Notes under the pieces: generated by a model
Seen by the model: only the letters and a program-made list of their open reading frames with translations
Database searches by the model: none
Told to the model about the DNA's origin: nothing
Assembly (NCBI RefSeq): GCF_000006985.1
Contig: NC_002932.3
Coordinates: forward strand, 643,501-707,500
DNA: 64,000 nucleotides
From: Chlorobaculum tepidum TLS
Lineage (GTDB): Bacteria > Bacteroidota > Chlorobiia > Chlorobiales > Chlorobiaceae
Direction: 5' to 3'
Translations under genes and position numbers: made by a program
Shown: positions 17,070-62,450 of the stretch, piece by piece
Position numbering within the stretch: position 1 is the stretch's first letter
How the letters are laid out: each line of letters opens with the position of its first letter

Positions 17070-17473
<404 letters not shown>

Positions 17474-57731: not shown

Positions 57732-57803
57732 TGGGGCGTCGCCAAGTGGTAAGGCATCGGCCTTTGGAGCCGACATCCGCAGGTTCGAATCCTGCCGCCC
57801 CAG
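57732..57803 (+). tRNA. tRNA-Gln (anticodon TTG)
   Basis: Acceptor TGGGGCG pairs with CGCCCCA, D arm GCC...GGC, anticodon stem TCGGC/GCCGA with loop CTTTGGA (anticodon TTG), T arm GCAGG-TTCGAAT-CCTGC, discriminator G. CCA is not encoded. 72 nucleotides. Confidence 0.96.
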
Positions 57804-57931
57804 CAAAAGAGTCGGATATGATAACTTTCCATCCGGCAGGAGCATAGCCCGCCATCTCCTTGAATATTCCATTCCCGGCACTTGCGCCCGTCAGGAACCT
57901 CGATGAACCGAACCGACCCCACCACTGAATC

Positions 57932-58822
57932 ATGAAAGTGCTTGAACCGAACCCTGTTGCCGCCTCGTTTCGTGACGCCGTCCGCCGGCAGATTAGCGAG
58001 GAGCAGCTTACGATCAACATTGTTGGTATTCTCGCCTCAGACGACCCCGCCTCGATCACTTATGCCGACTATACCCGCGCCGGATGCGAAGATGTTGGCA
58101 TTCATTTTGATCTCAGGAAGTGCGAGCCGGAGTCGGTGAGAGCCACCCTCGAAGCGGCTAATCGCGACAGCGCTGTTCACGGCATTTTCGTCTATTACCC
58201 GATCTGGGGCGACAAGCGCGACGCGGAGTTGCGCGACCTGATTTCGCCACACAAGGATGTTGAGGGGTTGTCGCCGCACTGGATCAAAAAGCTCTACGCC
58301 AACGAGCGTTTCGACGACACGGAACGGAGATTCAAGTCGATTTTGCCCTGTACGCCGCTGGCCATTATCAAGCTGCTCGAAGTCACTGAAGCTTACGCAC
58401 CCTTCGGCTTGCCGTTTGGCGGCCAGCAGATCACCATTTTCAACCGCTCGGAGGTCGTCGGCAGACCGCTTGCTTACATGCTCTCGAACGACGGCGCACG
58501 TGTTTACTCTTTCGATATTAACGGCGGTTTTGTCGTCGACGTCAACAGCTCTGACCACGAATCGCGCCCCGTCACGCGTGAGGAGGCGCTCAGCCAGTCG
58601 GATATCGTTATCACTGGCGTGCCGTCGCCGCACTTTGAAAAGGTGAGGGCTGAGGAGCTGAAGCCGGGCGCGATCTGTCTCAACTTCTCCTATATCCAGA
58701 ACTTCGAGCCGGAGGCCAAAGAGGCTGCGTCGCTTTACATTCCGAGGGTCGGCCCCATGACGGTGGCCATGTGTATGAGAAACGCCCTGCAACTCTATCA
58801 CAACTACCACCATGAAGTCTGA
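57932..58822 (+). CDS. MTD1-like methylenetetrahydrofolate dehydrogenase (FolD family, cyclohydrolase Lys absent)
   Basis: A 296-residue FolD-superfamily protein. In ordinary FolD the cyclohydrolase Lys follows a Tyr by four residues; here Y44 is followed by T48 (SITYADYTRAGCEDVG), so the Lys is missing. The rest (GIFVYYPIWGDKRD, KDVEGLSPHWIKKLY, RFKSILPCTPLAIIKLLE, IFNRSEVVGRPLAYMLSNDGARVYSFD) resembles the yeast Mtd1 NAD-dependent dehydrogenase more than FolD. It should oxidise 5,10-methylene-THF to methenyl-THF but not hydrolyse it. It overlaps fchA by 11 bases, which can supply the missing step. Confidence 0.85.
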   Translation: MKVLEPNPVAASFRDAVRRQISEEQLTINIVGILASDDPASITYADYTRAGCEDVGIHFDLRKCEPESVRATLEAANRDSAVHGIFVYYPIWGDKRDAELRDLISPHKDVEGLSPHWIKKLYANERFDDTERRFKSILPCTPLAIIKLLEVTEAYAPFGLPFGGQQITIFNRSEVVGRPLAYMLSNDGARVYSFDINGGFVVDVNSSDHESRPVTREEALSQSDIVITGVPSPHFEKVRAEELKPGAICLNFSYIQNFEPEAKEAASLYIPRVGPMTVAMCMRNALQLYHNYHHEV

Positions 58823-59435
58823 CGGAACGCTCGGGTGGAGCGCAATCTCCACCTATCTCGACAGTCTTGCCAGCGCTGACCCCACTCCCGGCGGCGGCGC
58901 GGCGGCGGCAGTCACGGCGGCACAAGGCGCGGCGCTGCTCTCGATGGTTTGCAACCTGACCATCGGCAAAAAGAAGTTCGCCGATGTCGAGCATGAAGTC
59001 CACTCGATTCTCGACCAGTGCGAAACCGCCCGCCGCCAGATGCTCAACCTCGGCGACCGCGACATGGAGGTGTTTGGCACGATCATGCAGATCTACAAGA
59101 TGCCGAAAGCGACGCCGGAGGAGGCCGATGCTCGCCGGGCTGCGATCCAGCAGGCGCTCAAGGCCAGCGCCGAAGTGCCGTTCGAGCTGTTCAAGCGCTG
59201 CCTGGCCATGTTGCCTCTCGCAGATCGCCTCGAAAAGATTGGCAACCCCAAGGTGTTGAGTGACGTAATCGTTGGCCGCTATCTACTGGTTGCCGGGCTG
59301 ATGAGTGCCATGGCAAACGTCGAGGTCAACCTCGCCAGCATCGACGATGCCGAATTCTGCAAAGCCAAACGCGAGGTTATGCTTCCAGCAATCGCAAGCA
59401 TGGGCGTGAGCTGGCGGGGGCTGGCGGGCGTTTAA
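58812..59435 (+). CDS. fchA: methenyltetrahydrofolate cyclohydrolase FchA (FTCD-C fold)
   Basis: A 207-residue all-helical protein of the formiminotransferase-cyclodeaminase C-terminal family. The signature LASADPTPGGGAAAAVTAAQGAALLSMVCNLTIGKKKF matches FchA. It would turn methenyl-THF into 10-formyl-THF, the reaction the adjacent Mtd1-like enzyme cannot do. The 11-base overlap implies coupled translation. A pure formiminoTHF cyclodeaminase role is the alternative but less likely without histidine-degradation genes. Confidence 0.88.
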   Translation: MKSDGTLGWSAISTYLDSLASADPTPGGGAAAAVTAAQGAALLSMVCNLTIGKKKFADVEHEVHSILDQCETARRQMLNLGDRDMEVFGTIMQIYKMPKATPEEADARRAAIQQALKASAEVPFELFKRCLAMLPLADRLEKIGNPKVLSDVIVGRYLLVAGLMSAMANVEVNLASIDDAEFCKAKREVMLPAIASMGVSWRGLAGV

Positions 59436-59477: not shown

Positions 59478-59509
59478 AAAAAAGCCGCCCTTTTTCGGGC
59501 GGCTTTTTT
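59478..59509. terminator. strong bidirectional terminator between fchA and ahcY
   Basis: AAAAAAGCCGCCC, loop TTTTTC, GGGCGGCTTTTTT: a symmetrical hairpin serving both convergent genes. Confidence 0.9.
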
Positions 59510-62250: not shown

Positions 62251-62450
62251 AGTTTCCCTTTCGGTTTTTTGTTAATCGAACGACAAGAACGGCAGGTGTC
62301 CGGCGGTTTGCCGATGCGGTTTTCTCGTGAAGGTGAATGTCGCGGAGGGACAAACGGGACACGGGAAACCTTTCGGCAAGCTCCGGGGACAACTCCCGCA
62401 AGAGAGCTTTTGGCACCGTGTCCATAGGTAATGGGGATGCCGGAAAATCA
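62251..62450 (-). ncRNA. SAM-Chlorobi-type structured leader of metK-ahcY
   Basis: About 200 nucleotides separate the likely start site from the metK ATG. The minus strand folds locally: GGACACGG (62416-62423) pairs with CCGTGTCC (62357-62364), and inside it AAGCTC (62404-62409) with GAGCTT (62378-62383). The SAM-Chlorobi motif is known only from Chlorobi and only upstream of metK-ahcY operons, exactly this context. Whether it is a true SAM-sensing riboswitch is unsettled. I matched it by context and pairing, not by covariance model. Confidence 0.65.

Follow-up and report, generated by a model that had tools for sequence, protein, structure and literature searches.

A predicted Mtd1-like dehydrogenase and its FchA-like neighbour as a probable split replacement of bifunctional FolD in Chlorobaculum tepidum

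Results

An overlapping gene pair between tRNA-Gln and ahcY

The window considered here, i.e., the whole stretch of DNA that was analysed, spans 64,000 nucleotides of Chlorobaculum tepidum TLS (contig NC_002932.3, positions 643,501 to 707,500). Within it, two genes, which we call mtd and fchA, sit between a tRNA-Gln gene and the genes ahcY and metK, which run towards them (Table 1). Their coordinates, reading frames and 11-base overlap are as claimed in the first-pass annotation; its description of the pair as "fused in translation" has to be dropped, for these are two separate overlapping frames and there is no fusion. The overlap has the same length in nearly all Chlorobaculum relatives and measures 4 bp and 1 bp, respectively, in G035 and G039, two Chlorobium relatives that carry the pair. 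Such an arrangement of frames suggests that translation of the two genes may be coupled.

Rfam matches in the 64-kb window comprise tRNA, tmRNA and SAM-Chlorobi RNA only, with no riboswitch before mtd, and a search for sigma-70-like promoters detected none. A conserved leader peptide before mtd was also considered and rejected, the short upstream frame not being conserved.

Table 1. Features of the mtd-fchA locus and RNA genes and elements of the window (positions count from the first letter of the window)
Feature	Position	Strand	Evidence or remark
mtd, predicted Mtd1-like 5,10-methylene-THF dehydrogenase, 296 aa	57932..58822	+	PF00763 and PF02882; yeast MTD1 (1edz) closest by sequence and predicted structure
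fchA, predicted methenyl-THF cyclohydrolase of the FTCD_C family, 207 aa	58812..59435	+	PF04961, E 3.9e-65
11-base overlap ATGAAGTCTGA	58812..58822	+	fchA start within mtd end, in another frame
Codon of Thr48 (ACC)	58073..58075	+	FolD cyclohydrolase Lys position (human Lys56, E. coli Lys54)
Codon of Tyr88	58193..58195	+	human Gln100 position
Codon of Glu111	58262..58264	+	human Asp125 position
Codon of Asp195	58514..58516	+	where the second Rossmann strand ends; probably contacts the ribose of NAD, by the general rule for NAD-binding folds
Terminator-like hairpin between convergent fchA and ahcY	59478..59509	none	-22.3 kcal/mol, z -4.1; 0 of 200 shuffles as stable
tRNA-Gln(ttg)	57732..57804	+	ARAGORN; neighbour of the pair at its insertion site
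SAM-Chlorobi RNA (RF01724)	62355..62442	-	82.5 bits; upstream of metK, known cis-regulator in the group
tmRNA gene (RF00023)	17070..17473	+	110.5 bits

The mtd product is closer to yeast MTD1 than to FolD

The mtd product (protein 1) has the two-domain THF dehydrogenase/cyclohydrolase fold, as indicated by Pfam (PF00763 and PF02882 over cut-off, with moderate scores of 67 and 60 bits) and by structure matches to FolDs (Z about 29-32). Its best match is yeast MTD1 (1edz; 2.9e-63, 217 bits, about 40% identity), compared with 64 bits for the best FolD and only about 25% identity to the FolDs of Chlorobi. None of the FolD equivalog models of NCBIfam exceeds its cut-off with this protein (best 86 bits vs 411), and no MtdA-type Pfam domain matches it. 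The predicted structure (pLDDT 94) likewise places 1edz at the top rank in Foldseek; VIA-align 2 superimposes the model on 1edz with Z 38.9 and an rmsd of 1.9 over 295 residues, and on FolD/MTHFD structures with Z 32.3 or less. A tree that included 18 diverse FolDs separates these, at 100/100, from the bacterial Mtd1-like proteins together with yeast MTD1; the yeast protein stands beside the bacterial group, in a position that the tree does not settle exactly.

The residues that align with human Lys56, Gln100 and Asp125 are Thr48, Tyr88 and Glu111. Across 81 Mtd1-like proteins from several phyla, position 48 is T or A without exception (T in yeast, K in all aligned FolDs), position 88 is always Y and position 111 always E, as in yeast, the corresponding residues of FolD being Q and D. 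The first-pass annotation had pointed to Thr48 at the site of the cyclohydrolase Lys and to a resemblance to yeast Mtd1; both observations hold, and the change extends to three FolD residues, not one. The functions of this catalytic Lys/Gln/Asp set have been described for FolD (PMC3368264, PMC6443876). In the E. coli enzyme, K54N renders the cyclohydrolase undetectable and leaves about 19% of the dehydrogenase, and Q98H leaves about 1% and 8%, respectively (PMC5688156), which backs the functional meaning of the Lys and Gln changes in Mtd1-like proteins. From its sequence, we infer that protein 1 lacks cyclohydrolase activity.

A further position bears on the cofactor. The second Rossmann strand ends with Asp195, a residue present in 81 of 81 Mtd1-like proteins and in yeast MTD1. 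In Rossmann-type NAD-binding folds, an Asp at this place generally favours NAD over NADP, and this rule, together with the invariance of the residue, suggests that protein 1 prefers NAD. Protein 1 is thus probably a monofunctional, NAD-specific 5,10-methylene-THF dehydrogenase of the yeast Mtd1 type.

The fchA product resembles FchA of Methylobacterium extorquens

Protein 2, encoded by fchA, matches Pfam FTCD_C (PF04961) at 219 bits against a cut-off of 24.5. Its nearest solved relative is FchA of M. extorquens (7vg4; 149.8 bits, 188 residues aligned), followed by FTCD (92 bits) and TM1560 (1o5h; 82 bits). With the FchA equivalog NF045657 of NCBIfam it scores 189.9 bits, below the cut-off of 275, and we therefore file it as an FTCD_C protein that would work like FchA, not as an equivalog. 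The Chlorobi FchAs form one group in the tree (100/100). It is from genome context only that we infer a methenyl-THF cyclohydrolase role for protein 2. Additional fchA material occurs in two relatives: a partial copy of 104 residues downstream of the pair in G009 (L061, 8660-8974) and pieces with in-frame stops on contig 86 of G039 (L050/L051).

No formiminotransferase domain is found in the C. tepidum genome, so there is no evident formimino-THF on which a cyclodeaminase could act. This counts against a cyclodeaminase role of protein 2, and a role in histidine degradation was rejected on the same ground. It also weakens the alternative that protein 1 is a diverged, still bifunctional FolD whose FTCD_C neighbour does something else, for instance formimino-THF cyclodeamination. 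That alternative can draw on the shared fold and on both Pfam FolD domains in protein 1, as well as on the fact that FTCD_C takes in cyclodeaminases and that TM1560 is related to protein 2. Nevertheless, with Lys, Gln and Asp changed in every one of the 81 proteins, K54N by itself abolishing the E. coli cyclohydrolase, 7vg4 nearer to protein 2 than FTCD or TM1560, and FchA occurring just where FolD is missing (see below), we consider it very improbable.

The pair as the probable sole enzymatic source of 10-formyl-THF visible in the genome

The C. tepidum genome examined consists of one contig of 2,154,946 bases and is 99.98% complete. It contains no second FolD-superfamily gene and no second FTCD_C gene, mtd being the only THF_DHG_CYH match and fchA the only FTCD_C match. 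Formyl-THF synthetase (FTHFS/Fhs) was not found in it either, and the only trace of FTHFS across Chlorobiaceae is a fragment of 110 residues in a genome that is itself fragmented. Three users of 10-formyl-THF are encoded, namely PurN, PurU and Fmt. Because the genome has three such users, yet neither another folD nor a formyl-THF synthetase, the mtd-fchA pair is probably the sole route to 10-formyl-THF visible in it. The formyl-THF deformylase PurU (L219, 1441-2418, minus strand) is present despite the lack of a formyl-THF synthetase for formate reuse.

FchA joins Mtd1 where FolD is absent

A survey of the class covered 98 genomes, scored for canonical FolD and for FchA over cut-off. FchA is encoded by 15 of the 19 FolD-less genomes and by none of the 79 FolD-containing ones, among which we count one whose FolD is just a fragment at the edge of a contig; Fisher's test, ignoring relatedness, gives p 2e-14. 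Three of the four FolD-less genomes without FchA, G022 (66% complete), G038 and G088, have no FolD-superfamily match whatsoever. The fourth, G076, encodes Mtd1 without FolD or FchA and was rejected as a counterexample: its contig ends inside radA, beside the folD site, and folD may be unassembled. FolD and Mtd1 coexist in 13 genomes, and FchA is found in none of these. Within the class, FchA joins Mtd1 only where FolD is absent. The genes around mtd vary, both among FolD-containing Chlorobi and in other phyla, and share no theme.

In FolD-containing genomes, the native site of folD has the order clpX-hslV-rpoN-gene-folD-radA, where the gene of about 190 residues adjoins rpoN. Seven FolD-less genomes (C. 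tepidum, G001, G002, G004, G013, G035 and G039) have kept the flanks and lack folD; read directly, the rpoN-radA interval of C. tepidum is 223 bases long and contains no folD. G035 and G039 retain a decayed folD piece at this site, with 36-38 bits to close FolD and 0 of 500 shuffles reaching as much. No remnants were found at the native site of C. tepidum or G004. The site in G001, G002 and G013 shows weak matches to one YVRN motif on the expected strand, and that of G013, the sole one compared with shuffles, was reached by 3 of 500.

These observations also bear on whether a canonical folD has simply been overlooked through an artefact of annotation or assembly. An assembly gap of this kind may explain the seeming lack of FolD in G076, with its contig end inside radA. 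For C. tepidum, a missed canonical folD is refuted by the whole-genome search, with one match in a single, almost complete contig, and by the reading of the rpoN-radA interval, and we give this explanation next to no weight.

The Chlorobaculum pair lies between tRNA-Gln and ahcY; in FolD-containing relatives, the same tRNA-Gln is followed by ahcY with no mtd-fchA between them, and G006, G010, G012 and G017 are FolD-containing genomes with this site free of the pair. In G035, the tRNA-Gln site is empty and the mtd-fchA pair is located elsewhere, and the Mtd1 of G035 and G039 groups with that of FolD-containing genomes. The simplest reading is that FolD was replaced at least twice, separately, within Chlorobiaceae. 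Since the Chlorobi FchAs form one group while the Mtd1 of G035 and G039 sits with the Mtd1 of FolD-containing genomes, there may have been more than one gain of fchA beside mtd, or more than one loss of it from pairs.

The hydrolysis of methenyl-THF can be partly spontaneous (PMC5688156), and FchA therefore need not be strictly essential. This raises the possibility that the dehydrogenase is what matters, with hydrolysis largely spontaneous and merely accelerated by FchA, and that Mtd1, in relatives that also have FolD, serves redox balance as an additional NAD-linked dehydrogenase. The relatives that carry FolD and Mtd1 without FchA would fit such a scheme, as would the viability of cyclohydrolase-less E. 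coli mutants, which grow slowly (PMC5688156). We regard it as unlikely, given that the pair is the only route to 10-formyl-THF visible in FolD-less Chlorobiaceae and that FchA is kept in all FolD-less Chlorobiaceae with Mtd1 save G076, whose folD site is unassembled.

Mtd1-like genes occur in several other phyla

We scanned 84,980 species, each represented by one genome; candidates were recovered through two short motifs, and the result is hence a lower bound. The scan uncovered at least 78 Mtd1-like loci in Chlorobiota, Pseudomonadota, Myxococcota, Bdellovibrionota, Planctomycetota, Thermodesulfobacteriota and Actinomycetota. In many of the gammaproteobacterial cases, FchA is encoded immediately downstream and the genome lacks FolD, and adjacent mtd-fchA pairs are also found in Pseudobacteriovorax genomes without FolD. 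FolD is present, and an adjacent FchA absent, for the loci of Sorangium, Paludibacterium, Desulfuromonadales and actinobacteria. Counted over the 81 sequences, 41 come from FolD-less genomes with an adjacent FchA and 28 from genomes with FolD and no adjacent FchA; 11 come from genomes with neither FolD nor an adjacent FchA, most of them planctomycetotal and several with FTCD_C at another place, and one combines FolD, Mtd1 and FchA. A phylogeny-corrected pair test provided 8 independent contrasts, of which about 3 agree, none disagree and the rest show no difference; by itself the test is not significant, because independent contrasts are too few.

Outside Chlorobi, nine FolD-less genomes, mostly of Planctomycetota, have Mtd1 but no adjacent FchA. 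In the planctomycetotal loci L126, L141, L155, L157, L162 and L164, FTCD_C is encoded elsewhere, mostly in long open frames. The single genome with FolD, Mtd1 and an adjacent FchA (G131, L149/L180) is a MAG, in which mixing of organisms is possible. The Mtd1 of betaproteobacterial Paludibacterium (L114, L115) is 62% identical to that of Chlorobi, a likeness that suggests transfer. Four genomes of Sorangium cellulosum (L127, L130, L131 and L163) have an Mtd1-like gene beside FolD.

Discussion

We put at roughly nine in ten the probability that mtd and fchA are a split replacement of bifunctional FolD, consisting of an NAD-dependent dehydrogenase and a cyclohydrolase, with the activities deduced from sequence and genome context. 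Protein 1 retains the superfamily fold, Tyr44 as the substrate tyrosine and the cofactor site, and lacks the Lys/Gln/Asp set required for FolD cyclohydrolase chemistry. It would carry out the NAD-linked oxidation of 5,10-methylene-THF, and protein 2 would hydrolyse the resulting 5,10-methenyl-THF to 10-formyl-THF, such that C1 units from serine and glycine would pass through the pair to PurN and Fmt (and PurU). As for the order of events, the pair would have been inserted between tRNA-Gln and ahcY, with folD lost afterwards from its native site beside radA. The first-pass annotation had proposed such a replacement, with the second gene as a separate FchA-type cyclohydrolase, and had named an ordinary folD gene at another place in the genome as the finding that would speak against it and a tree of FolD, Mtd1 and protein 1 as a check. 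Support for the proposal comes from FolD and FchA being distributed in a complementary way, from the emptied folD site and from the remnants of folD; the FTCD_C match and the closeness of 7vg4 agree with the assignment of the second gene, the complete genome holds mtd as its one THF_DHG_CYH match, and in the tree FolD is set apart from yeast MTD1 and the Mtd1-like proteins.

The pair can be compared with several known systems. Like the NAD-dependent, monofunctional MTD1 of yeast, protein 1 has T/Y/E in place of the Lys/Gln/Asp of FolD, and an Asp where the second Rossmann strand ends; unlike MTD1, it is bacterial, has shorter inserts and is partnered by a separate cyclohydrolase gene. With bifunctional FolD it shares the superfamily fold and the Pfam domains, and differs in the missing active-site Lys, Gln and Asp, canonical FolD being absent from the genome. 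In methylotrophs, MtdA and FchA are a dehydrogenase and a cyclohydrolase in separate proteins, as in the C. tepidum pair, and MtdA serves C1 assimilation. Protein 2 belongs to the same FTCD_C family as M. extorquens FchA, but its partner is Mtd1-like instead of MtdA, and the pair resides in a green sulphur bacterium without Fhs. In yeast, the cyclohydrolase resides in the trifunctional ADE3/MIS1 proteins (PMC11064299). Among the open-access papers searched, we found no earlier description of bacterial Mtd1 with FchA; databases may already label some members.

FolD is regarded as near-universal and essential in bacteria and has been studied as a drug target. One of its inhibitors, carolacton, is made by Sorangium cellulosum. 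The sites of carolacton resistance in E. coli FolD, K54 and Q98, coincide with residue changes in Mtd1. Mtd1 and FchA might then constitute a C1 module that needs no FolD, moves horizontally and is by nature insensitive to carolacton and other FolD inhibitors; bypass of the inhibited target may account in part for its spread, an idea we hold to be speculative and rather doubtful. A spread of this kind is conceivable because the carolacton-making S. cellulosum carries an Mtd1-like gene beside its FolD, and this gene could possibly confer self-resistance.

For annotation, the three residues let monofunctional dehydrogenases be separated from FolD. The yeast MTD1 type is now placed within a wider bacterial family, and NAD is predicted to take the place of NADP as cofactor at the methylene-THF dehydrogenase step. 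Finally, a single bacterial family displays stages of the replacement of FolD: FolD alone, FolD together with Mtd1, and Mtd1 with FchA in genomes with decayed remnants of folD.
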